Part shown: positions 12,362 through 32,561 of the stretch, piece after piece
Layout: the number at the start of each line of letters is the position of its first letter
How positions within the stretch are numbered: the first letter of the stretch is position 1
The notes under the pieces: generated by a model
What the model saw: the letters and a program-made list of their open reading frames with translations, nothing else
Databases searched by the model: none
What the model was told of the DNA's origin: nothing
From: Spirosoma sp.
Lineage (GTDB): Bacteria; Bacteroidota; Bacteroidia; Cytophagales; Spirosomataceae
Direction: 5' to 3'
Length of the DNA stretch: 34,876 nt
Assembly: GCA_014377625.1 (NCBI GenBank)
Contig: JACMPG010000044.1
Coordinates: forward strand, 1 to 34,876
Program-made: the position numbers and the translations under genes

Positions 12362-13105
12362 ATGGAACTCATTATTCAGAAAAACCCCGACGCGCTGGCC
12401 AGGGCAGCTGCTGACTTTATTACGAAGCGCATCAAACACGTACTTAAGACGCAGGATCGGTTCACCATTGCGCTGTCGGGCGGTAGTACACCCAAAGCAT
12501 TACACGAACTACTGGCCAAACCGCCCTACGTCGATCAGATTCCGTGGCTGCAACTGCATGTGTTCTGGGGTGACGAACGCTACGTACCTATTGACGATCC
12601 GCAGAGTAATGCGGGCATGGCCTACGATACGCTGCTGGGTCACGTCTACACGCCCGAAGATCAGATTCATGTCTGGCGAACCGACCTGGAACCCGAAGCT
12701 GCTGCCGCCGATTACGACCGGATCCTGCACGAGTATTTTAGTGAAACAGGCAAAGCGTCGCCCGGACCCACGTTTGACCTCGTTCTGCTCGGTATGGGCG
12801 ACGATGGTCATACGCTTTCGCTGTTTCCCGGTACGGAGGTGGTTCACGAGCAAACCGCCTGGACCAAAGCATTTTTCCTCGATCAGCAGGATATGTACCG
12901 GCTAACCCTCACCGCACCAATGGCCAACCGGGCCGCCTGCGTCCTGTTTCTGGTGGCTGGTCCAAAAAAAGCCGAAGCCCTGAAACAGGTGCTGGAAGGC
13001 GATTATAACCCCGATAAATATCCATCCCAGGAAATCAAACCCATCCCCGGCGAACTCATCTGGATGGTGGACGAAAAAGCGGCTGCGGAGTTGGCTAAAA
13101 ATTGA
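12362..13105 (+). CDS. pgl: 6-phosphogluconolactonase (DevB type)
   Basis: 247 residues; hydrolyses 6-phosphogluconolactone, the product of Zwf. Family motifs: 'IALSGGSTPKALHELL' near the N-terminus, 'VFWGDERYVP', and 'LLGMGDDGHTLSLFPG' with the active-site His. Start taken at ATG 12362, which gives the usual family length and follows the cupin TGA after 2 nt. Third gene of the zwf operon; no gnd follows. Confidence 0.95.
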   Translation: MELIIQKNPDALARAAADFITKRIKHVLKTQDRFTIALSGGSTPKALHELLAKPPYVDQIPWLQLHVFWGDERYVPIDDPQSNAGMAYDTLLGHVYTPEDQIHVWRTDLEPEAAAADYDRILHEYFSETGKASPGPTFDLVLLGMGDDGHTLSLFPGTEVVHEQTAWTKAFFLDQQDMYRLTLTAPMANRAACVLFLVAGPKKAEALKQVLEGDYNPDKYPSQEIKPIPGELIWMVDEKAAAELAKN

Positions 13106-13243
13106 TTGCATAACAAACTATAGGTGCTGCGAAAGGCTTGTCTGAGATTTGGATGTCTTTGTTTGTGAGGTATTACAGTATACCCCGCCCATTCACTCAT
13201 TCGATCCAATTCGGCATACCGATTCACTAATTCAAAATTGACC

Positions 13244-14644
13244 ATGGAATTCCGTACTGAAAAAGACACGATGGGACCCGTTCAGGTACCCGCCAATGTA
13301 TACTGGGGCGCGCAGACGCAGCGCTCTATCGAGAACTTTAAAATTGCGCAGGACACCGACAAGATGCCCCGCGAGATTATCCGGGCGTTTGCCTACCTCA
13401 AAAAAGCCGCGGCCCTTACCAATCGCGACGCGGGCGTGCTGCCCGCCGAAAAATGCGACCTCATTGGGCAGGTGGCCAACGAGATTCTGGCCGGTGAACT
13501 GGCCGATCAGTTTCCGCTCGTGGTCTGGCAAACGGGTTCAGGTACGCAGAGCAACATGAACGTGAACGAGGTGATTGCCTACCGCGCCCACGTGTTGCAG
13601 GGCGGGCAGCTCACCGACGAGAAAAAGGCTATGCACCCCAACGACGACGTGAACAAGTCGCAGTCGAGCAACGATACGTTTCCAACGGCCATGCATATTG
13701 CGGCCTACAAAATCCTTGTTGACGTCACGATTCCGGGCATTACTAAATTGCGCGATACGCTGGCCGATAAGTCGAAGCAGTTTATGCACGTGGTGAAAAT
13801 TGGCCGGACGCACTTTATGGACGCCACGCCGTTGACCGTGGGGCAGGAGTTCTCGGGCTACGTCTCGCAACTCGATCACGGACTGCGGGCCATCAATAAC
13901 ACCCTCGCGCACCTGAGCGAACTCGCCCTCGGTGGTACCGCCGTGGGTACCGGCATCAACACGCCCCCGAACTATTCGGAAAACGTAGCCAAACACATCG
14001 CCGACCTGACGGGCCTGCCGTTTGTAACTGCCGAAAACAAGTTTGAGGCCCTGGCTGCGCACGATGCTATCGTGGAAGCGCACGGCGCGTTGAAAACCGT
14101 AGCGGCCAGTTTGATGAAGATTGGTAACGACATCCGAATGCTGGCGAGCGGTCCGCGTGCGGGTATTGGCGAGCTACACATTCCCGACAACGAACCGGGC
14201 AGTAGCATCATGCCGGGCAAGGTGAACCCCACGCAGTGCGAAGCCATGACAATGGTGGCCGCGCAGGTTATGGGCAACGACGTAGCCATCAACATTGGCG
14301 GCATGAGCGGCCATTTTGAACTGAACGTGTTCAAGCCCGTCATGATCGTCAACTTCCTGCACTCGGCCCGGCTCATCGGCGACGTATGCGTATCGTTCAA
14401 TGACAAGTGCGCCCTCGGCATTGAACCCATCGAAGCCAACATCAACAAGCACGTCAATTCGTCGCTGATGCTGGTCACGGCCCTGAACACGAAAATCGGG
14501 TACTACAAAGCCGCCGAAATTGCGCAGACCGCCCACAAGAACGGCTCTACGCTCAAAGAAACCGCCGTTTCGCTCGGCTACGTCACCCCCGACCAGTTTG
14601 ACGAGTGGGTCATACCGGGCGATATGGTGGGGGATGTCAAGTAA
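13244..14644 (+). CDS. fumC: class II fumarate hydratase
   Basis: 466 residues; reversible hydration of fumarate to malate in the TCA cycle. Start at ATG 13244 ('[15 protein letters not shown]'), the usual beginning of FumC. Motifs: '[13 protein letters not shown]', '[13 protein letters not shown]' and the superfamily signature '[16 protein letters not shown]'. Full length. It lies on the same strand as pgl after a 138-bp gap in which I see no promoter matching the consensus, and is followed by a clear hairpin terminator. Mqo, which uses its product malate, is encoded at the other end of the window. Confidence 0.97.
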
Positions 14645-14674
14645 GTTGGCTTTCTCTCCCTATTTTGCTTTCTC

Positions 14675-14703
14675 AATCGGATGACTGCACAGTCATCCGA
14701 TTT
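14675..14703 (+). terminator. fumC terminator
   Basis: Perfect 12-bp arms 14675-14686 and 14691-14702 around a 4-nt loop, followed by TTTCTTTG. It lies 31 bp after the fumC stop and marks the left border of the AT-rich island. Confidence 0.75.
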
Positions 14704-14913
14704 CTTTGTGCTGTGCTGTAAACCGAACGAACAGGTATTGCCGATGGTGGGTAATTTTATATTCGTCCGCCCGGAACTGCTGCTTGGCTTTTTGATAAAG
14801 TTAAACATTAAGAACTAAAGCTGGGCTTTATTCGTCAAGTCCCGAACCGCAGCACAGCAGAATTACTACTGCTGATTGCTCCAATGTCTAGCCCCACTAC
14901 TGGTAAGACCAAT

Positions 14914-14920
14914 GTTAGGC
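14914..14920 (-). other. integron-like core site (R'' type) at the HEPN stop codon
   Basis: On the - strand the heptamer is GCCTAAC, an exact match to the attC core RYYYAAC. It contains the TAA stop of the HEPN gene, an arrangement common in integron cassettes. No matching GTTRRRY was found within the next 200 nt downstream, so a complete attC is not shown. Confidence 0.35.
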
Positions 14921-15565
14921 GATGTTTTTCTTTTCGTAATTTGAGAGGGCAGCATTGTTAGTTATGTCATTTTTAATTGAAGTCATAAGAATAGTGATTT
15001 CTGTATACAGTTCATAAAACTCCTCTTCATTAATGTCTGGGTCTTGTCCATGTGCAACAGAATTTCTAATTCTCAGAAGTTGACTGTCAATGTATTTTTC
15101 TTTGAGTTCATATGGTGTGTAGTCAACGCCTATGACCGATAAGATTTCCCTTAGTATACTTGAATTTAAATTTGATTGTATCTTAATAATATTTTCTGTA
15201 GGTATTTGCGCCCTGATATTTAAGTCCCCCAAAAGGAAATTTACTAATTGTATATGCACCGTATTTTTATTAATTTCTTCAAACTCCTTCAATTGTGATT
15301 TTAAAGAAACCGCAATCATACTATTACTAAGTCGATTAAGGTTAAGCTTTTTACAAGCGACAAAAATTAAGTAATGTTCAGCCGCATTTTTAATAAAACC
15401 TTCCCAATGTGCATATAGCATGACTACTCCAATTCTTATATTGGTATTGAGTTGAAGAGGCTTTGAAGATTGTACGTTTGTATAAATTACAGTTAGCTCT
15501 TTCCTCCTCCAAGCAAAGTCTTCATCTAATCTTGTTTGTAACTCTTCTGTCGTTCTAATTTTCAT
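14915..15565 (-). CDS. MAE_28990-type HEPN protein (putative RNase)
   Basis: 216 residues, AT-rich codon use. The middle part 'LYAHWEGFIKNAAEHYL' is characteristic of the MAE_28990/MAE_18760 HEPN family, and 'RIRNSVAHG' supplies the R-x4-H motif (Arg167, His172) that forms the RNase active site in HEPN dimers. Members of this class are predicted effectors in conflict systems. It overlaps the end of the DUF262 gene by 11 bp, so the two are translationally coupled. I infer an effector role here, with DUF262 as sensor or regulator. The gene ends inside an integron-like core site. Base composition differs sharply from the flanking fumC and amidase genes, pointing to transfer. Confidence 0.8.
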   Translation of the reverse strand: MKIRTTEELQTRLDEDFAWRRKELTVIYTNVQSSKPLQLNTNIRIGVVMLYAHWEGFIKNAAEHYLIFVACKKLNLNRLSNSMIAVSLKSQLKEFEEINKNTVHIQLVNFLLGDLNIRAQIPTENIIKIQSNLNSSILREILSVIGVDYTPYELKEKYIDSQLLRIRNSVAHGQDPDINEEEFYELYTEITILMTSIKNDITNNAALSNYEKKNIA

Positions 15566-16673
15566 TTGTAAAAATCTGTTCGCCTAATGGAATAAAATGT
15601 GGTAGTCTTGTGGATGCTCTTTTTCCACTACCAGAATTTTCTACAAAAACTGGATTAAGGCTTACCGATTTAATTTTCTCTTTTAAAGTTTCGATACTAT
15701 CTGGTGTATCATAGTAATTATTAATATTTTTAGCTAGCCCTGTAACAATAACTTCAAATGAGGCTATTGAAAAAGCCCCTGTAAACTTATTTTTTTGAGG
15801 CTCCCATTTTCTGAAAGTATCTTCCCCAAATGCCTTCCCGAGTAACAGGAAAACTTTTTCAAAGTTATCTTTTTCCAACGCATAATTAAATCCTTCAAAA
15901 AAGGCAAATTCTACCATTTTATCAGTAAGAAGTTTTCCAACGTCTTTTGTGGCATTTACATCTTGAACTGTTATCGCTTTATACACAAAATATCGTAGGG
16001 CTAATTCCATGTCATACTGTTCTTCAAGGGCTCTTTCTGTTATGGGAATCGTAGACTTAAATCCTTTATTTTTACTTAGTCCGGAAAGCCAAGTATAAAA
16101 TGCCTTATTTATCATAACTAAAATACAGTTTCTGATTTCTTGCTCTGTTAAAGCAGTGCCACCTGTATTTAGTCTTTGAAACAATTCAAATTTAGTGTCC
16201 TTGTCACTTTCTTTCTTTATGATTTGAACACCTAACTTGGCTCTCTTAATTATCAGCCTCTGTGCTTGGTCAAATGAATTTGCAGGCTCGTCATCTTTTT
16301 GCCAATATTTTCCTTCAAGTGAAGGGAGGTATTCTGTTGCACTGAGTTTGCTTCCGGCGATGGTTTTGCCTTTATCGTCTCTAAGCAATCCAGCAAATTC
16401 TAAAATTGTTGATAGTCGTTGAAGTCCATCAATAACATCCCATACTCCGTCTTCCCGTTGTGAAACGAAAATTGGTGGGATAGGTATTCCCAATAAAATA
16501 GACTCAATAAGTTTAGTTTTTTGATTCGGAGTCCACCTGAAGAAACGTTGAAATTCCGGATGAATGTCGATTTCCTTGTCTTTGTAAAGAGACATAAGTT
16601 CTCCGATTGATAAAGCATATCCGTCTGTGTGGATTTGTTTTGCTCTCTTTTCTATTTCGTCTTGTAATGCCAT
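15555..16673 (-). CDS. DUF262 (GmrS/ParB-like) protein
   Basis: 372 residues. The N-terminal half is the DUF262 domain: 'IDIHPEFQRFFRW', then 'DVIDGLQRLSTI' (Asp82-Arg86), equivalent to the DGQQR nucleotide-binding motif of the ParB/Srx-like fold. In the type IV restriction enzyme GmrSD this domain powers or gates DNA cleavage, with DUF1524 supplying the nuclease. No DUF1524 HNH motif is visible here; the C-terminal half (about 180-372) is helical and lysine-rich. The cleaving partner is therefore probably the HEPN protein encoded next, with which it overlaps by 11 bp. AT-rich like its partner. Defence function is inferred. Confidence 0.85.
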   Translation of the reverse strand: MALQDEIEKRAKQIHTDGYALSIGELMSLYKDKEIDIHPEFQRFFRWTPNQKTKLIESILLGIPIPPIFVSQREDGVWDVIDGLQRLSTILEFAGLLRDDKGKTIAGSKLSATEYLPSLEGKYWQKDDEPANSFDQAQRLIIKRAKLGVQIIKKESDKDTKFELFQRLNTGGTALTEQEIRNCILVMINKAFYTWLSGLSKNKGFKSTIPITERALEEQYDMELALRYFVYKAITVQDVNATKDVGKLLTDKMVEFAFFEGFNYALEKDNFEKVFLLLGKAFGEDTFRKWEPQKNKFTGAFSIASFEVIVTGLAKNINNYYDTPDSIETLKEKIKSVSLNPVFVENSGSGKRASTRLPHFIPLGEQIFTNEN

Positions 16674-16696
16674 TATGAAGTGGGGTTTAAAATATC

Positions 16697-16703
16697 TCCT
16701 AAC
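16697..16703 (-). other. integron-like core site (R' type) before DUF262
   Basis: On the - strand the heptamer is GTTAGGA, six of seven matches to the attC core GTTRRRY. It lies 23 nt before the DUF262 ATG, the usual short distance in an integron cassette. Together with the core site at the HEPN stop it would bound a cassette of about 1.8 kb. Confidence 0.35.
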
Positions 16704-17104
16704 GTTTTTGGGCTTGGCGAAGGTGGGATTTAGAAAGCACCAAAGTTCAAATTTATTACAAAACTAACAGAAAGTACAAATGTTCAGCCATGATTATATG
16801 TCCCAATAATAATAACTTCAGGGTCATAAGTTACAGTGTCCAAAATTGAATTGTGAGTTTGAAACCCGTTGTCAAAATTGTGTTGTTGATATTTGTGTAG
16901 AAATGGCATTTGTCAGTTAGTTATTATGTCTGTTGGTGTGTCGTCATACACTTGTGCATAACTCTCTATTAGACGAAAGTTTTGCAGTACTTCTTGTATG
17001 CATTTAAACTATTCAAATACGTAATAGTACTATTCTTGCAATACTTTCTATATTGTTGCTTACTACACTCTTAAAAGTAGTAGGCTACTTATTAGATCTC
17101 CAAA
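16704..17104 (-). other. AT-rich non-coding stretch between recombinase remnant and DUF262
   Basis: About 400 bp without a credible coding frame. It holds the candidate promoter for the DUF262-HEPN pair and a further TAAC core-like word at 16956-16962. In position it corresponds to where an attI site or an ORF-less cassette would lie in an integron. I see no tRNA and no transposon ends. Confidence 0.4.
16748..16779 (-). promoter_or_regulatory. candidate promoter of the DUF262-HEPN operon
   Basis: On the - strand, TTG (16779-16777), 21 nt, then TAAATTTG (16755-16748), an exact match to the Bacteroidota -7 consensus TAnnTTTG. The leader would be about 70 nt. It lies outside the presumed cassette boundary at 16697-16703. 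Confidence 0.5.
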
Positions 17105-17392
17105 TCATTTATTTTCAAGATTTAGCGAGTCAAAGGGGCTCTTTATCGCTTCGATTGTTCGTTTGCTTACGTGTATACAGCGTAGCGTAGTCTTGACGTC
17201 ATTATGGCCTAATAGTTCCTGTATGAGTTTGATGTCTGTACCGGCCTCATGCAGGTAGGTAGCAAAACTATGACGCAAACTATGGAAGGTTACGGCTTGC
17301 TAGATTTTGGCAGCATCTTTGGCACGATGGAAAATACTTTGCAGACTGCATGTAGTGTACTGGCTGTTCTCATTTTGCCGGATGCGTCGGCA
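17105..17392 (-). pseudogene. C-terminal remnant of a tyrosine recombinase (integron-integrase-like)
   Basis: 96 codons read leftwards to TGA (17105-17107). '[18 protein letters not shown]' carries the H-x-x-R box and '[14 protein letters not shown]' is the conserved helix. The tail 'IKSPFDSL' resembles the C-termini of integron-type integrases. Three lesions: an in-frame TAG at 17300-17302; the position of the nucleophilic Tyr is TGT (Cys, 17177-17179) in 'TTLRCIHVS'; and the N-terminal two thirds are missing, the remnant abutting the amidase stop codon. It cannot be active. It lies upstream of, and in the same direction as, the DUF262-HEPN pair, marking the right edge of the island. Confidence 0.88.
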
Positions 17393-19036
17393 TTACTTAT
17401 ACGCTTCCGGGATTTTGCGGGATTTCGTTGCCTGCTCATAGGCATAGCCAATTTTTAGCAGTTTATCTTCCTCAAAGGGCCGGGCAATGAACGTGATGCC
17501 GATGGGTTCGCCGTTGGTTTTGTAGCCCATCGGAACGGTCAGGCACGGGTAGTTGGCGGCTGCGGCCAGACCGGCACTTCGGTTGTTGATCGACAGGATC
17601 ACGTCGAGCTGGTTTGCCTGCATTGGCTTCTCAAAATAACTCACACCACTTTTGCGGATATTCGTCCGTAGCTGCGCTATCTCTTCCGGGCTGCTCGTTG
17701 CTTTGGTAACCCCCGCAATCCGGCCCTGTCCGTACGGCATGCGCCGGGCCGAGTCCTGCTTGTTGTAAGCCAGAATATCATTTACCGATTTGTAGGGGAG
17801 TGCCGCCGAGCCGTAACTTTTGATATAGTTCGGCAGGTCGGCGTTCATGTCGGCGTTCAGCAGCGTACCGAATCCTTCGTTGGGTGCCTGCTCCAGGTCA
17901 ATCTCTACCACCGTGCCACCCAGCGACCGAATTTTTTCGACGTTCAGGGCATAGGTCGTGTCTTTCAGCAACGGTTTATATGCGCCGAACCGAATGCCCG
18001 TTAAACTGCCTGTTTTCACCTCTTGCCAGTATTGCTTATTCTTCGGGTTGTTTGCCGTCGCCGGGTCGGCGGGGTCTTCGCCCGACATAGCCGACAGCAG
18101 AATGGCCGCATCGACCACCGTTCGGGTCATGGGACCGGGCGTATCGAACGTACTGGAAATAGGGACGATACCACCCCGGCTCAACAGACCTGTAGTGGGT
18201 TTGAGACCAACCAGCGAGTTAGCACTCGACGGCGACAGAATAGATCCCGACGTTTCGGTACCTACGGCCCCGGCGGCATAGTTGGCCGCTACGGACGAGC
18301 CACTCCCCGAACTCGACCCGCCCGTGTCGAACTGTCGGCGGCCGTACGGATTCAGCGTTTGCCCGCCCATGGCACTGTACCCATTGGGGCAGTCGAGGCA
18401 CATAAAATTAGCCCACTCGCTCAGGTTTGCCTTGGCTAGTATGATGGCCCCCTTCTCCTGAAACCGATCGACAATGAAGGCATCTTTGGTGTCGCGGTTG
18501 TTGCTGAACGCCTGCGCCCCGGCGGTGGTGGGTAGCCCGTTCAGGTTGATGTTATCTTTCAGGATAATGGGCATGCCGTAGATGGGGGGGGTAGCCGCCG
18601 ATTTGTTTTTGTCCCGCTGTCGGGCTTCGGCTACGGCATTTGGGTTGATGGCAATGATGTTGTTCAGGGTTGTATTCCGGTCATTTTCGTAGAGAGCAAT
18701 CCGGTACAGATACCACTGCGTCAGCTTCTCGTACGTCAGTTTGCCGGATTGAACGTTGGCCTGCAGGGTGGGTATATCCTGCTCCAGAATGAGCGGTTTG
18801 AGGGCCTGATAATCTGTTGCCGTGAAATGTTTCAACTGGCTGGCTATCGATTTCCAAAGCTCATTCTTATCCAGATTCCTGGACTGAATCAGCTTGTAGC
18901 GCAATCGGGGAGATTCGTTCTTAGCATTTTTGGCCAGTTCATCCGATTCGTCGTAGGGTGTCCAGGCGGGGATGGTCGTTTTCTGGGTCTTACAGGATGC
19001 CAGAGAAATTAGTAGCAGTACAATCAGCTTTTTCAT
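17393..19036 (-). CDS. amidase signature family lipoprotein
   Basis: 547 residues. The N-terminus 'MKKLIVLLLISLASC' is a lipoprotein signal with Cys15 as the likely lipid attachment site, so the enzyme is periplasmic or on the outer surface. The amidase signature Ser-cisSer-Lys triad is visible: Lys in 'GMPIILKDNINL', and Ser residues in 'GGSSSGSGSS' and 'GTETSGSILSPS'. 'PGPMTRTVVDAAILL' is also typical. The family hydrolyses carboxamides; the substrate is unknown. It is not GatA, because of the export signal and the lack of gatB/gatC neighbours. Its stop codon touches the recombinase remnant, so the very 3' end may have been shaped by the insertion, although the protein looks full length. 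Confidence 0.93.
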   Translation of the reverse strand: MKKLIVLLLISLASCKTQKTTIPAWTPYDESDELAKNAKNESPRLRYKLIQSRNLDKNELWKSIASQLKHFTATDYQALKPLILEQDIPTLQANVQSGKLTYEKLTQWYLYRIALYENDRNTTLNNIIAINPNAVAEARQRDKNKSAATPPIYGMPIILKDNINLNGLPTTAGAQAFSNNRDTKDAFIVDRFQEKGAIILAKANLSEWANFMCLDCPNGYSAMGGQTLNPYGRRQFDTGGSSSGSGSSVAANYAAGAVGTETSGSILSPSSANSLVGLKPTTGLLSRGGIVPISSTFDTPGPMTRTVVDAAILLSAMSGEDPADPATANNPKNKQYWQEVKTGSLTGIRFGAYKPLLKDTTYALNVEKIRSLGGTVVEIDLEQAPNEGFGTLLNADMNADLPNYIKSYGSAALPYKSVNDILAYNKQDSARRMPYGQGRIAGVTKATSSPEEIAQLRTNIRKSGVSYFEKPMQANQLDVILSINNRSAGLAAAANYPCLTVPMGYKTNGEPIGITFIARPFEEDKLLKIGYAYEQATKSRKIPEAYK

Positions 19037-19142: not shown

Positions 19143-19496
19143 CTAAAACCAGATTTTCAGCATGTGCTGATTCAATTCTATAACCTGAGCCTCTTCCAAA
19201 GCCATAAGCAGTTGGGTGAACGAAGATCTGAACAGGTCGAGTAAGGGCCGATTGCGTAGATTACCAGTGGTAATGTAAACCAGTTTGTAAGGTTGTCTTT
19301 TTACGATATAGGTGTTGATGAAATCGCTGTCTTTCGTAATGACAGTTCGTTCCTGCAACATACTCTGCTCGCAAATAAACTCGTCCGAAATGCGTGAATC
19401 AGTAAGTAGTGCGGAGACGTGAATGGCGTCGTACCCCTTTTCCTGTAGCCAGTCGGCCAGGAGCCGGGGTAATTGCTCATCTATCAGAAACGTCAT
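19143..19496 (-). CDS. DUF5615 PIN-like protein (putative toxin)
   Basis: 117 residues. 'MTFLIDEQLPRLLADWL' and 'ERTVITKDSDF' are the two acidic motifs of the DUF5615 PIN-like fold, a predicted Mg2+-dependent RNase. The start overlaps the DUF433 stop by 4 bp, the usual arrangement of this toxin-antitoxin-like pair. The gene ends 13 bp from the 41-bp repeat. Confidence 0.88.
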   Translation of the reverse strand: MTFLIDEQLPRLLADWLQEKGYDAIHVSALLTDSRISDEFICEQSMLQERTVITKDSDFINTYIVKRQPYKLVYITTGNLRNRPLLDLFRSSFTQLLMALEEAQVIELNQHMLKIWF

Positions 19497-19714
19497 GCCA
19501 CAAGCGAAACAGACTTGAAATGAGCTAACTGCACGGCATAATCTAGACAGGCGCGAATATCGTTTTCATCAATACCCGGATATTCTTCCAGTAACTCTGA
19601 CCAGCTAGCCCCGCCTGCCAGTAATTCCAGTATGGTGGTTACCAAAAGCCTTGACCCCCGAATGGTTGGCTTACCGTGGCACACATTCGGGTCGATAGTG
19701 ATGCGAGATATCAT
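19493..19714 (-). CDS. DUF433 protein (putative antitoxin)
   Basis: 73 residues from 'MISRITIDPNVCHGKPTI', the canonical DUF433 start; an in-frame ATG at 19732 adds six residues not typical of the family. 'IRGSRLLVTTILELLAGG' and 'YPGIDENDIRACLDYA' are family motifs, forming a small helix-turn-helix-like DNA-binding domain. It is the upstream partner of DUF5615 and probably neutralises it and represses the operon. Confidence 0.88.
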   Translation of the reverse strand: MISRITIDPNVCHGKPTIRGSRLLVTTILELLAGGASWSELLEEYPGIDENDIRACLDYAVQLAHFKSVSLVA

Positions 19715-19768
19715 TGCGTTCAGTTTTAACAAAATTAATCAAATCCTGCTGTAAGAGCAGGGTGAGGG

Positions 19769-20056
19769 TCAAAACCCGGCGGCTTGCCCGTCTTTGCGCG
19801 ATTCGGTGGCGCCATGGTAAACTTTATTCCGGACATCGTACATGATAGCCTGATACCCGCCGTAGCCGCCGAGTCCGTAGCCTACTTTGTGGCCCATGCG
19901 CATCAGGTCGCGGATGGTTTCGTAGGAATAGCCCGATTCGAGTTTTATCTGGCCGGAGTCGGTCATGCGTTCGCGGGTGGGTTCGGAGGAGCCGTCGTGG
20001 TCGATGCGGGGGGCGTCGCCGGCTTCCTGCGGGTTCATGCCGTAGTCGATCATGTT
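19769..20056 (-). pseudogene. 3' fragment of a second gamma-glutamyltransferase gene
   Basis: About 290 bp encoding the last 95 or so residues of gamma-glutamyltransferase ('NMIDYGMNPQEAGDAPRID' to 'DGQAAGF', TGA at 19769-19771). At DNA level it is similar but not identical to the intact gene at 30864 (several dozen differences, mostly silent), so it is the tail of an older paralogue. Homology stops abruptly at about 20056; the frame runs a further 120 bp into unrelated sequence. The catalytic Thr region is missing, so no activity is possible. Confidence 0.9.
19771..19811 (-). repeat. direct repeat copy 2: tail of a gamma-glutamyltransferase gene
   Basis: 41 bp matching copy 1 (19090-19130) with two mismatches. 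Here it is the natural end of the larger gene fragment, so this copy is the probable source of copy 1. Confidence 0.8.
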
Positions 20057-20132
20057 TATTGGCAAGAAAATAGAAGCACCAGCGCATACCGAGATGGTGA
20101 TGGAGTAATCAGGAAATTCATATCGTTTGTTA

Positions 20133-20140
20133 TAGCTTTG
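20133..20140 (+). promoter_or_regulatory. candidate -7 box for mrr
   Basis: TAGCTTTG, an exact match to the Bacteroidota -7 consensus TAnnTTTG. No TTG is seen at the right distance upstream. Its last G is the first base of the hairpin at 20140-20165. Confidence 0.4.
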
Positions 20141-20170
20141 GTGTCGGGAGGAAACTCCCGACACCTTTTT
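20140..20170 (+). terminator. hairpin with GAAA loop and T5 just before mrr
   Basis: Perfect 11-bp arms (20140-20150 and 20155-20165), loop GAAA, then TTTTT. It has the form of an intrinsic terminator but lies only 22 nt before the mrr start codon and overlaps a candidate promoter. It may be an attenuator of mrr, an operator, or the end of a lost upstream gene. Confidence 0.65.
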
Positions 20171-20191
20171 ATTCAAACATTCTCTGATTTT

Positions 20192-21109
20192 ATGCCGGTT
20201 CCTGATTATCAGACGTTAATGCTGCCACTGTTGAAAGCGGTTGCTGACAGAAATGAGTATAAACTGAACGATATGGTTGAATTGCTTGGTGAGCAATTCA
20301 ACCTGACCGAAGAAGAACGAAGTGAACTCTTGCCGAGTGGTCAGACATTTTTGTTTGGCAGTCGGGTTGGCTGGGCGAAAACGTATTTGAAAAAAGTAAG
20401 ATTACTCGATTCGCCCAAACGGGGCATCATTGCCATTACAGAACGCGGCTTGAGTGTTCTTGAACAGAAGCCAACTAAAATCAACGTCGCTTTACTCAAG
20501 CAGTTTCCAGAATTTGTCGAATTTCAAACGCCTAAGCGTAGTGACGATTCTACCAACGTACAAACGACTATTGATGAATCATCAGCGCAAACGCCCGAAG
20601 AAATTCTGGAGAATGCGTACCTGAGTATTCGTAAAGATTTAGCTCAGGAGGTTCTGAATAAGATTGTCGCTATGTCGCCCCTTTTCTTTGAAGAGCTTGT
20701 TGTCAAGCTCCTGGTGAAAATGGGATATGGTGGCTCAATCAAAGATGCAGGTAAAGCCATAGGTAAAAGCGGTGACGAAGGCATCGACGGGACGATCAAA
20801 GAAGATAAATTGGGTCTCGATGTTATTTACATTCAGGCCAAGCGATGGGCACCCGGCAACGTAGTGGGCAGACCCGAACTGCACAAATTTGTGGGTGCGC
20901 TGGCCGGGCAGGGTGCCAAAAAGGGCGTTTTCATTACCACGTCCAGCTTTACCAGAGAAGCCAGAGAGTACGTTCCCCGCAACGAAACTAAGATCGTGCT
21001 GATTGACGGCGACGAGTTAGCCCAACTGATGATCGACTACAACCTTGGCGTTTCCGTTCAGCAGACGTTCGAGATCAAGCGCATGGACAATGATTTTTTC
21101 GGCGAGTAA
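20192..21109 (+). CDS. mrr: Mrr-type restriction endonuclease
   Basis: 305 residues from ATG 20192 ('MPVPDYQTLMLPLLKAVAD'), the usual Mrr N-terminal winged-helix domain (about 1-90, DNA binding). An acidic linker follows, then the Mrr catalytic domain (about 155-285): 'FFEELVVKLLVKMGYG', 'GDEGIDG', and the PD-(D/E)xK variant 'VIYIQAKRW' with Gln-x-Lys. 'KKGVFITTSSFTREA' is typical of the end of the domain. Mrr enzymes are type IV restriction nucleases that cut methylated foreign DNA; no methyltransferase is encoded nearby, as expected. The frame continues upstream to 19784 but only through the antisense of the gamma-glutamyltransferase fragment. Confidence 0.93.
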   Translation: MPVPDYQTLMLPLLKAVADRNEYKLNDMVELLGEQFNLTEEERSELLPSGQTFLFGSRVGWAKTYLKKVRLLDSPKRGIIAITERGLSVLEQKPTKINVALLKQFPEFVEFQTPKRSDDSTNVQTTIDESSAQTPEEILENAYLSIRKDLAQEVLNKIVAMSPLFFEELVVKLLVKMGYGGSIKDAGKAIGKSGDEGIDGTIKEDKLGLDVIYIQAKRWAPGNVVGRPELHKFVGALAGQGAKKGVFITTSSFTREAREYVPRNETKIVLIDGDELAQLMIDYNLGVSVQQTFEIKRMDNDFFGE

Positions 21110-29076: not shown

Positions 29077-29295
29077 ATGACAGTCGTACAAATTCCTGTT
29101 GCGGAAGATCTCATTCTGGCGATGGGGCAGCGGGCAATCGAGGAATTCCTGCAAAAGCAGACCCAGGCATTGCGACTTCAGCTACTGGCCGAGCGGCTGG
29201 ATAAGTTGATTACCGATAGTGGCATAGACTGGGACGGCGAACTTGAAACGGCCCGTCAGGAAGCTTGGGAAACTTACCAGCGTAATCACTCGTGA
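29077..29295 (+). CDS. antitoxin of a PIN-type toxin-antitoxin pair
   Basis: 72 residues from ATG 29077 ('MTVVQIPVAEDLILAMG'). It is helical, and the C-terminal half 'DKLITDSGIDWDGELETAR' is acidic, as in small antitoxins that wrap around a PIN toxin. It overlaps the PIN gene by 4 bp. Identification rests mainly on the partner. Confidence 0.7.
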   Translation: MTVVQIPVAEDLILAMGQRAIEEFLQKQTQALRLQLLAERLDKLITDSGIDWDGELETARQEAWETYQRNHS

Positions 29296-29723
29296 ACGCC
29301 TACGTCATTGATGTGAACGTCCTATTCAGTGGCCTGATTAGCCGCAAGCCCTTTTATGAACGGCTGTTTGGGCAGTATCAGTTTAGCACACCTGATTTTG
29401 CCTTGATCGAACTGGAAAAGTATCGCAGTGTCTTTCTCAAAAAGGTCAAAGGTAATCCGGCTGATTTTGAAGAGTTTGCGCTATTGCTGTTCTCTCGCCT
29501 GACTATTATTCCGGATTTTCTGATTCGCCCAGAATTCAAAAATCAGGCTGCTATCTTATGCGATCCCGTCGATCCAAAAGATTCATTATACGTTGCGTTG
29601 GCTATGCAATTTAGTTAATCGCTTATCACGCGAGATGTACCGTTGCACGACCACCTAAAAGCAAACGGATTTGAGCAAGTCGTATTATTCGATGAATTTA
29701 TACGTCAGACCGGGGCTGTCTGA
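29292..29723 (+). pseudogene. PIN-domain toxin interrupted by a nonsense codon
   Basis: The frame begins 'MNAYVIDVNVLFSGLISR' (acidic Asp7), continues through Glu40 ('ALIELEKY') and 'PVDPKDSLYVALAMQFS' (Asp94/Asp97), and meets TAA at 29616-29618 (codon 109). The same frame continues without shift: 'SLITRDVPLHDHLKANGF' to TGA 29721-29723, exactly the expected end of a 143-residue PIN protein. The last acidic residue of the active site (Asp115 in 'TRDV') lies beyond the stop. The truncated product is therefore probably inactive, while the antitoxin remains intact. Confidence 0.82.
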
Positions 29724-30863: not shown

Positions 30864-32561
30864 TTAAAATCCTGCTGCCTGCCCGTCTTTTCTGGATTCG
30901 GTGGCACCATGATAGACTTTATTCTTGGCATCGTACATAATGGCCTGATAGCCCCCGTAGCCACCGAGCCCGTAGCCCACGCGGTGGCCCATGCGCATGA
31001 GGTCGCGGATGGTTTCGTAGGAATAGCCCGATTCGAGTTTAATCTGGCCGGAGTCGATCATACGCTCGCCGGTGGGTTCGGAGGAGCCTTCGTGGTCGAT
31101 GCGGGGGGCGTCGCCGGCTTCCTGAGGATTCATGCCGTAGTCGATCATGTTCATGATGATCTGGACGTGACCCATCGGCTGAAACGCCCCGCCCATGACG
31201 CCGAGGGTCATAAACGGTTGCCCATCTTTGGTCACGAACGCCGGAATGATAGTCTGAAACGGGCGTTTGTGGGGTGCAAACGTGTTGTTTTGCCCGTCGG
31301 TCAGGCTGTACAACTCGCCCCGGTCCTGAAGCATGAAGCCCAGCCCGTCTGGCACCATGCCGGAGCCGAAGCCCCGGTAGTTGCTCTGGATTAGCGAGAC
31401 CATGTTGCCTTCATCGTCGGCAACGGTCAGGTAAATGGTGTCGCCATCTTTCAACGCGGGATTTCCGGCCTCCACGCGACTGGCGGCCCGATTATCGTTG
31501 ATGAGTTTGCGCCGTTCGGTGGCGTAGGGCTTGCTGATGAGTTCGGCCACGGGGATTTTGGCAAAGGCCGGGTCGGCGTAGTATTTGGCGCGGTCTTCAA
31601 AGGCGATTTTTTTAGCTTCTACGAATTTGTGAATGTGTTCGGCACTGCCCCAGGGAATCTTCGAGAAATCGTAGCCTTCGAGCAGATTCAGCATTTGCAG
31701 GGCCGCAATACCCTGGCTGTTAGGCGGCAACTCCCATACGTCGTAGCCCCGGTAGTTCGTCGAGACGGGTTCTACCCAGTCGGAGGTATGGTCGGCGAGG
31801 TCTTTTGCGCTAAGAAAGCCGCCGTTTTTCTTCATAAACCCGTCGATAGTGCGGGCAATGTCGCCTTTGTAAAACGCATCGCGGCCACCCGTTGCAATTT
31901 TCTCCAGCGTATTGGCCAGAGCCGGGTTTTTAAAGATTTCACCCCGTTTGGGTGCGGCTCCAGTGGGCGCGTAGGTGTCCATGACGTTCGGGTATTTGTT
32001 AAACCGCGCAATCATCGATGACCAGTAAAACGCGGCTTCGTCATGTACCGGAAACCCCTCGCGGGCGTAACGGATGGCGTGGCTCAAAATCTCGGTCATG
32101 GGCTTTTTGCCGAACCGCTTGTGCAGCGTAAACCAGCCATCTACGCAGCCCGGTGTGGACACCGGCAGTGGTCCGTCGCTCGGAATGTGCGTTAGCCCGC
32201 GTTTCTGAAATTCGGCCAGCGTGAGCGAATACGGCGACCGCCCGGATGCGTTCAGGCCGTACAGTTTTTTTGTTTTGGCATCCCAGACAATCGCGAACAG
32301 ATCACCCCCAATGCCGTTCATGTCGGGTTCTACCAGCCCCTCCATAGCGTTGGCGGCAATGGCGGCATCAATCGCGTTCCCCCCTGACCGCAACACGGCG
32401 ATGGCGGCCTGCGTAGAGAGCGGGTGCGAGGTGCAGGCCATGCCATGCTGAGCCATAACTACGGCACGGGTGGCAAAGGTTTTACCCGTAAGCCGGTCCT
32501 GGGCAAGGGCGGGTAACGTCAACCAAATCAGTACGTAAAGGGTGGGTACAAATTTTTTCAT
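30864..32561 (-). CDS. ggt: gamma-glutamyltransferase
   Basis: 565 residues with a signal peptide ending 'LPALA' at about residue 20, so periplasmic. The enzyme hydrolyses or transfers the gamma-glutamyl group of glutathione and related peptides. 'SGGNAIDAAIAANAMEGLVE', 'VSTPGCVDGW' and 'GGAFQPMGHVQIIMNMID' are family motifs. Autocleavage should occur before Thr375 in 'GDTIYLTVAD', giving large and small subunits. Full length. Fragments of the 3' end of a second copy lie 11 kb away (19090-19130 and 19769-20056). Confidence 0.96.
   Translation of the reverse strand: MKKFVPTLYVLIWLTLPALAQDRLTGKTFATRAVVMAQHGMACTSHPLSTQAAIAVLRSGGNAIDAAIAANAMEGLVEPDMNGIGGDLFAIVWDAKTKKLYGLNASGRSPYSLTLAEFQKRGLTHIPSDGPLPVSTPGCVDGWFTLHKRFGKKPMTEILSHAIRYAREGFPVHDEAAFYWSSMIARFNKYPNVMDTYAPTGAAPKRGEIFKNPALANTLEKIATGGRDAFYKGDIARTIDGFMKKNGGFLSAKDLADHTSDWVEPVSTNYRGYDVWELPPNSQGIAALQMLNLLEGYDFSKIPWGSAEHIHKFVEAKKIAFEDRAKYYADPAFAKIPVAELISKPYATERRKLINDNRAASRVEAGNPALKDGDTIYLTVADDEGNMVSLIQSNYRGFGSGMVPDGLGFMLQDRGELYSLTDGQNNTFAPHKRPFQTIIPAFVTKDGQPFMTLGVMGGAFQPMGHVQIIMNMIDYGMNPQEAGDAPRIDHEGSSEPTGERMIDSGQIKLESGYSYETIRDLMRMGHRVGYGLGGYGGYQAIMYDAKNKVYHGATESRKDGQAAGF

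Follow-up and report, generated by a model that had tools for sequence, protein, structure and literature searches.

The window analyzed here, a 34,876-nucleotide (nt) stretch of Spirosoma sp. DNA (Bacteroidota; contig JACMPG010000044.1), carries on its minus strand a compact unit in which a gene for a DUF262 protein is followed by a gene for a HEPN protein. We conclude, with a probability of roughly three in four, that this unit is a gene cassette carrying an anti-phage operon resembling PD-T4-2, and that it was inserted near the attI site of an integron-like element that has since decayed. An initial annotation of this DNA had likewise proposed a mobile cassette, and the proposal is favored because attC arms, a recombinase remnant and complementary ends are present and related genomes contain complete arrays of this kind, although the window retains only parts of the recombination sites and the integrase concerned is not a standard IntI. 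The operon, its conserved residues, the recurrence of the gene pair, the part sites, the integrase remnant and the complete arrays in many Bacteroidota are direct observations. The integron-like system is a more important result than the operon itself.

Borders of the unit and hairpin arrays in related genomes

As the initial annotation had stated, GTTAGGA (16703-16697, minus strand) lies 23 nt upstream of the DUF262 start codon (ATG), and GCCTAAC (14920-14914, minus strand) includes the stop codon (TAA) of the HEPN gene. Judging the borders on these heptamers alone was abandoned, because GTTRRRY is no more common in the window than expected by chance (50 matches versus 71.7). The sequence at the upstream border (16686-16786, minus strand) is 86% identical over 102 nt (E 2.4e-27) to L130:2247-2348, a segment of another genome that forms the right part of a complete site (L130:2204-2337; L numbers designate loci). 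Arm matrices built on 69 sites outside this genome were used to score the window. The right arm at 16741 (minus strand) ranked first among 69,664 positions with 34.3 bits (runner-up 8.4), and the left arm at 14921 (minus strand), with one inserted base allowed, ranked first among 69,692 positions with 18.3 bits (runner-up 11.3). The left arm of the 5′ border site was not found in the window. The ends of the unit are reverse-complementary at 11 of 13 nt, including the GTT and AAC termini; a match this good arises in 122 of 200,000 random GTT/AAC pairs, and one further place on the minus strand (3120) also reaches 11 of 13. Recombination would have occurred between G and TT (written G/TT) at 16703/16702.

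Upstream of the unit is a remnant of an integrase gene, which matches PF00589 with 47 bits (17121-17290), covers positions 241-315 of TIGR02249 with one TAG inside, and belongs to a segment (16967-17359) that is 92% identical to C251, another remnant in the same genome. Homology to the integrase remnant of L026 stops at 16967, 6 nt short of the putative attI-like junction (Table 1). In three other loci (L121, L124 and L069) the integrase is followed by GTTATGTGC or GTTATGTGT, and in L120, L127 and L130 by other GTT forms. Shortened integrases of the array type also occur elsewhere in the Spirosoma genome (L024:8221-8901, L025:8551-9198, L026:5614-5940 and L027:175-477). No clean empty junction was found by synteny among 36 genomes of the genus, the window's own included: the fumarase-like gene that neighbors the unit has a match in 34 of the 36, the neighboring amidase gene is matched at E ≤ 1e-150 in only 4 of the 36 (the own genome counting in both), and the two are 20 kilobases (kb) apart in genome G272, which leaves no clean site for comparison.

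Table 1. Coordinates of the unit and of the elements next to it.
Feature	Position	Strand	Basis and remarks
DUF262 (GmrSD_N, ParB/Srx-like) gene	15555-16673	-	372 aa; D-G-L-Q-R motif; PF03235 and PADLOC matches
HEPN gene, RiboL-PSP-HEPN family	14915-15565	-	216 aa; R167-x4-H172; PF18735
Right two thirds of attC-like site with R′ GTTAGGA	16697-16786	-	homology to L130 site; matrix; left arm gone
Probable left arm of attC-like site, R″ CCTAAC over HEPN stop	14892-14921	-	matrix with one inserted base; right part gone
Possible residue of leading cassette, no recognized gene	16787-16955	-	between putative attI-like junction and partial attC
Putative attI-like junction, AACTTTCGTC...GAGAG/TTATGC	16956-16981	-	remnant homology; integrase-adjacent motifs elsewhere
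Integrase remnant, about the last 80 residues	17123-17359	-	PF00589, TIGR02249 and C251 homology

A BLAST search with the upstream border revealed five more copies of the right arm in the same genome. Six hairpins lie at or beside these copies, and five of them measure exactly 126 nt from YAAC to GTTA. The covariance model made from these five (R1) reports seven sites in this genome, including the five used for training; the attC-like hairpin is 133 nt long and has its own consensus. At E ≤ 1e-5, R1 has matches in at least 142 of the 291 genomes searched from the order and in at least 147 of 395 from the phylum. The two samples overlap, and both counts are lower bounds, since scoring was limited to 11 or 8 candidates in each genome. 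No Rfam family matches the hairpins (six sources searched at gathering scores, three at E ≤ 1).

Fifteen loci chosen for strong or clustered R1 matches, representing 13 arrays, were examined more closely. Sites numbering 69 were present in 14 of these loci, always on a single strand per locus at E ≤ 0.001. Their alignment shows covariation, with 81.2% paired cells compared with 59.8% after shuffling, and with 617 double-changed cells compared with 259 after shuffling and 128-163 when the pairing is slid. The alignment was fitted to R1, which biases it toward the structure, but the low counts in the slid controls argue that this fitting is not the main cause of the signal. Furthermore, in 38 of 55 consecutive site pairs the 5′ end (GTTNNNNNN) of a cassette is the full 9-nt complement of the same cassette's 3′ end (NNNNNNAAC). 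The mean complementary run is 7.31 of 9 (GTT/AAC counted) versus 3.97 in shuffled pairs, a value that none of 2000 shuffles reached.

Three shared cassettes were inspected among 31 DNA matches of at least 250 nt between the loci retrieved, and in all three the homology stops at G/TTA on the 5′ side. For the cassette shared by L117 and L119 it also ends at the 3′ end of the cassette, while in the L088/L155 case the L155 copy is preceded by sequence lacking an attC, as expected beside attI. In 44 of 47 intervals (those up to 2.5 kb) the sense strand carries the longest open reading frame (ORF), and the mean guanine-cytosine (GC) content is 0.33, like that of the operon. The arrays are composed of one-way cassettes between foldable attC sites, and the comparative evidence points to recombination at G/TT, with R′ and R″ belonging to one cassette. 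In the mechanism that we propose, the recombinase would act on the hairpin folded from a single strand, cutting R′ between its G and TT, and the resulting circular cassette would then be joined to attI. Because only part sites remain at both borders in the window, we regard the Spirosoma unit as a decayed cassette, with decay having presumably left some 80 C-terminal residues of the integrase and fragments of both flanking attC sites.

A probable second example of the DUF262-HEPN pair as a cassette is L102, from another genome, whose DUF262 protein is 38% identical to that of the window. Its right arm scores 8.3 bits and ranks first among 16,954 positions, the R′ motif GTTGTGTGC ends 29 nt upstream of the DUF262 ATG, and GCACACAAC is found 6 nt past the HEPN stop codon. 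From these sequences, the pair is probably an occasional cassette that has been captured at least twice.

Some RNA elements also accompany the arrays. The DUF805 RNA of Rfam (RF03081) lies inside cassettes at L009:2883-2952 (plus strand) and L120:10291-10359 (minus strand), about 75-95 nt past the upstream site. Group II intron domains occur near a cassette array at L121:2839-3206 (plus strand), and a group II intron gene lies between sites on a Chryseobacterium plasmid (L321:14732-16048, minus strand).

The array integrase and a candidate integron class

An integrase ORF is situated upstream of the sites and on the same strand in 7 of the 13 arrays, in L128 at a distance of 4 kb from the first recognized site. 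Among the other six arrays, the contig ends first in three, and no integrase was seen within 12-14 kb in three. A reverse search starting from the integrases gave the best 80 of at least 588 relatives, most of which are from Bacteroidota (Runella, Arundinibacter, Algoriphagus, Flavobacterium, Winogradskyella and others), with a few in records named Nitrospirae, Spirochaetes, Clostridium, Dehalococcoidia and others. At these 80 loci R1 gave 86 matches (E ≤ 0.01), and 82 of them are downstream of the integrase on its strand, two being upstream and two downstream on the opposite strand, even though the upstream DNA searched (660 kb) exceeded the downstream DNA (362 kb). Where at least 1.5 kb of downstream sequence was available, 25 of 49 loci carry an R1 site there. 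Beside such integrases, a Dehalococcoidia record (L220) has three R1 matches on both strands, and an Ignavibacteria record (L227) has seven on one strand.

The architecture of these enzymes differs from that of IntI. All seven array integrases (one cut by the end of its locus) align to TIGR02249 in two pieces, scoring 149-234 bits and thus below the cut-off of 265, and three of the seven pass the cut-off of NF040815. Their closest relative in the PDB is Vibrio cholerae IntI4 (2a3v). Between the aligned blocks there are 30 residues in the L130 enzyme versus 73 in IntI4, and the additional domain specific to IntI is lacking. The integrase gene is also on the cassette strand rather than in the divergent orientation of intI; inverted integrases are known in some integrons. 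An R, an HxxR, an H and a Y are invariant in the six integrases compared, and we take these for the catalytic residues. A profile of the N-terminal segment finds the HARP domain of SMARCAL1 (4o66) as its best PDB match (E 5.6e-6; next 0.22), and the Pfam HARP model matches five of the seven enzymes weakly (E 0.0035 to 0.65). The HARP domain of SMARCAL1 binds structured DNA. Among the best 80 integrases 60 have HARP-like segments, and because the share is similar with R1 sites (22 of 27) and without them (38 of 53), a role for this domain in attC recognition is a guess. A search of the order with TIGR02249 returned 0 of 291 genomes at E ≤ 1e-60, a result that does not establish the absence of classical IntI, since no control genome was positive.

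The resistance gene tet(X3) has a related setting on plasmids. In L319:5019-7150 (NZ_CP041297.1, Acinetobacter indicus) and L320:5019-7150 (FJ012881.1, pHH1107), the shortened integrase TnpF lies directly upstream of tet(X3). TnpF is 68% identical to the L130 array integrase over residues 219-445, and the tet(X3) stop codon is followed by a left attC arm of the Bacteroidota type with 28.5 bits (median of true sites 27.9; next in locus 9.6). The sequence G/TTATGTGC occurs between the two genes in L319. Neither locus has a right arm or a whole site by R1, and the ends of the fragment are complementary at GTTA/TAAC only. The gene tet(X3) appears to have been carried out of Bacteroidota within a piece of an integron of this kind.

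We consider it fairly likely that Bacteroidota, and perhaps other phyla, carry a widespread integron class that is not based on IntI. In this class, AT-rich cassettes would be captured via 133-nt attC hairpins by tyrosine recombinases that lack the IntI-specific segment, and the HARP-like domains present in many of these enzymes would help to recognize the folded site. Such integrons would move defense operons between genera, and tet(X3) on Acinetobacter-type plasmids would sit inside a fragment of one such integron. Literature searches found no description of this class within their scope, to which preprints and most subscription papers did not belong. Like classical and sedentary chromosomal integrons, the array system has folded attC-like sites, a probable G/TT crossover, one-way cassettes, an integrase at the head and defense cargo; sedentary chromosomal integrons with defense cassettes have been described (Darracq et al. 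2025, as cited in PMC13064858). It differs from classical integrons in that its integrase lacks the IntI-specific segment, often has HARP-like domains and is transcribed toward the cassettes, and in that its attC has a consensus of its own.

For Bacteroidetes proper, the single complete integron named with IntegronFinder 2.0 is that of Salinibacter ruber (PMC9024848), and other papers count Bacteroidota among the integron-bearing phyla. The odds that the class is novel are lowered by Smyshlyaev et al. (PMC8138268), who remark on incomplete conservation of the IntI insertion within an ‘integron-like’ recombinase subgroup, and by the name of NF040815, ‘site-specific tyrosine recombinase/integron integrase’, which is already in use for such proteins. 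As far as the accessible material goes, neither source links these proteins to attC arrays or HARP domains. If our proposal is correct, a phylum with few integrons reported by current tools has a common gene-capture system with a different integrase architecture, which would explain the movement of AT-rich accessory genes, anti-phage operons included, between distant Bacteroidota and would represent a second solution to the recombination of folded single-stranded DNA without the IntI-specific domain.

The DUF262-HEPN operon and its predicted role in defense

The two ORFs of the window operon overlap by 11 nt on the minus strand with DUF262 first, and their GC content is 0.33-0.36 (1-kb steps, 15001-17000) compared with 0.54-0.58 on either side (1-kb steps of 12501-14500 and 17501-19000), in keeping with the overlapping AT-rich genes described in the initial annotation. 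This arrangement points to coupled expression, and the two proteins may form a complex. The earlier description of a DUF262 protein without a DUF1524 nuclease also agrees with the Pfam search of the window proteins, in which GmrSD_N (PF03235, 100.7 bits) is the sole domain. For the second protein, the HEPN assignment and the R-x4-H motif stood, and the family match together with R-x4-6-H is what characterizes HEPN RNases. The MAE_28990 label is the second best, since PF18735 (RiboL-PSP-HEPN, 126 bits) outscores PF18737 (MAE_28990, 98 bits), although NCBI labels homologues ‘MAE_28990/MAE_18760 family HEPN-like nuclease’. Against solved structures, the DUF262 protein has no match at E ≤ 0.1 and the HEPN protein just two unconvincing ones (E 0.11 and 0.92). 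The PADLOC models matching the DUF262 protein include NsnA, which we take to be the DUF262 protein of Menshen (216.5 bits), and PD-T4-2_A (114 bits, E 1.7e-33), both of which hit 23 of 23 DUF262 homologues. The single PADLOC match of the HEPN protein is a weak one to Csn2 (E 0.00043).

Residues R167, H172, E55 and N132 do not vary among the 25 aligned HEPN proteins (window included), nor do D82, G83, Q85 and R86 among the 23 aligned DUF262 proteins. Within the order, 22 of 291 genomes have a DUF262 match at E ≤ 1e-30, the window's own genome being counted. Across all 25 loci of the order with such a match, the window itself excluded, an HEPN ORF directly follows the DUF262 gene in 24. The remaining locus, L116 (G000:C200:111-920, minus strand), is a second, truncated DUF262 gene of this family from the Spirosoma genome itself and is cut by the contig end, so that all 24 testable loci carry the pair. 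A lack of recurrent pairing had been named beforehand as evidence that would speak against the initial proposal. On viral contigs, where 80 loci were kept out of 178 relatives, an HEPN ORF starts within 400 nt of the DUF262 gene in 72; three of the other eight loci are cut, three have the HEPN ORF just beyond this limit, and two are without HEPN. Both genes are present on six plasmid records (two from Corynebacterium, two from Psychrobacter, and one each from Enterobacter and Leptospira), and a Paraburkholderia plasmid has a DUF262 match with both genes in its annotation. A Psychrobacter pair adjoins a BsuBI/PstI restriction-modification system.

The initial annotation knew of no described system with this pairing. 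As far as we can tell, operons of this kind are already known, because both DUF262 and HEPN PF18735 are listed for PD-T4-2, the former also for Menshen and Dazbog and the latter for three other systems (PMC10952713, Table 1), and deletion of PD-T4-2 from ECOR65 raises plaquing by T4 (Vassallo et al. 2022, PMC9519451). The window pair shares these two domains and the PD-T4-2_A match with PD-T4-2, and differs in that its HEPN protein matches no PADLOC PD-T4-2 model, in being found in Bacteroidota and in being cassette-borne; the likeness was drawn from domains and models rather than from the E. coli PD-T4-2 sequences. Operons that combine RiboL-PSP-HEPN or MAE_28990 HEPN genes with ParB-type genes were listed as early as 2013 (Anantharaman et al., PMC3710099). 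Their HEPN families beside a ParB-superfamily gene, predicted from neighborhoods, resemble the arrangement seen here, and the accessible text of that paper mentions neither a cassette context nor a test.

Two other assignments were rejected. The window DUF262 protein scores higher on NsnA than on PD-T4-2_A, but the DUF262 protein of Menshen is tied to a predicted OLD nuclease (PMC10952713), and the two-gene unit has no such gene; its neighbors encode an amidase (PF01425) and, judged by eye, a fumarase. GmrSD, BrxU and SspE share the DUF262 domain with its DG-Q-R motif, but these carry a DUF1524 nuclease, while the partner here is an HEPN protein. The absence of the DUF1524 HNH nuclease rules out membership in GmrSD type IV restriction.

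The PD-T4-2 precedent makes a defense role plausible, and the unit is a probable two-gene anti-phage operon. Defense would be carried out by a DUF262-gated RNase: the DUF262 protein may bind a nucleotide via its DGLQR motif and sense a phage-derived signal, for instance DNA that is modified or foreign, after which it would free or activate the HEPN RNase, and this enzyme would cut RNA and thereby stop phage growth or the infected cell. If correct, this interpretation would place the PD-T4-2-like pair among mobile defense genes of wide host range.

Competing explanations and other genes in the window

Several observations weigh against the interpretation of the unit as a cassette with an anti-phage operon. 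With its filters off, R1 found no complete attC at either border (13500-18500; best E 0.96), and our expectation of whole sites in the window was rejected on this basis; the attC-like fold that the initial annotation had predicted for the flanks is present in the form of part sites only. At the HEPN end, the left arm ranks first only when one inserted base is allowed; ungapped, it is 37th of 69,696 positions. In L102, R1 reports two other sites and not the one before DUF262, and the R′ motif GTTGTGTGC recurs 2.4 kb upstream, which together leave the exact extent of that cassette open. In the arrays, the number of pairs with any double change (40, versus 38.0 in shuffles) is not in excess, and full end complementarity is missing in 17 of the 55 site pairs, which we attribute in part to sites that were overlooked or an AAC that was read wrongly. 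The closest neighbors of the operon resemble housekeeping genes. Among the PADLOC models for PD-T4-2, none matches any of the 25 HEPN proteins (it was not checked whether they include one for the second PD-T4-2 gene), so the likeness to PD-T4-2 rests on domains. Finally, neither model nor matrices detect an attC-like border in 23 of the 24 homologous pair loci scored, L102 being the exception. Unrelated borders, which the initial annotation had considered damaging to its proposal, are thus the rule among homologues, and the pair usually travels by other routes.

This last result is also an argument for an ordinary operon acquired via a plasmid, a prophage or illegitimate recombination, with border motifs due to chance or unrelated causes. 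GTTRRRY is a common sequence, viral contigs often carry the pair, plasmids also have it, and the window has no whole attC. Such an origin would not account for the close match (86% over 102 nt) to a complete attC right before the gene, for arms that both rank first in the window (the left with one gap), for the complementary ends, or for the remnant of an array-type recombinase upstream, and we judge it very improbable. Even less credible, in our view, is the idea that the hairpins belong to a repeat family, such as miniature inverted-repeat transposable elements or REP-like palindromes, rather than to an integron. They are indeed repeated, palindromic and spread over the phylum, but within an array they keep to one strand, downstream of a single type of integrase, the two ends of a cassette complement each other far beyond shuffled partners, homology between genomes breaks at G/TTA, and the genes between sites run one way.

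A more serious, though still unlikely, alternative concerns function and leaves the cassette in place. The order of a regulator followed by an RNase, together with the gene overlap, recalls toxin-antitoxin systems, so the HEPN RNase might be a toxin held off by DUF262 in a module that mainly stabilizes the cassette or its element, with phage defense secondary or absent. Stabilizing modules are common in cassette arrays, and DUF433/DUF5615 and PIN genes are also in the window. However, the DUF262 partner is an enzyme-like protein of 372 residues with an invariant D-G-x-Q-R, the PADLOC matches are to defense models, and PD-T4-2, which has the same domains, protects against T4.

Beyond the unit, the window holds a gene for an Mrr restriction enzyme (Mrr_N and Mrr_cat; 19784-21109, plus strand), a DUF5615/DUF433 pair (19143-19732, minus strand) and a gene for a PIN-domain protein (29292-29618, plus strand). 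The Mrr gene is adjoined by the partial C-terminus of a gamma-glutamyltransferase (PF01019; 19769-20176, minus strand), and an apparently complete gamma-glutamyltransferase gene is located about 10.7 kb from this partial copy (30864-32561, minus strand).

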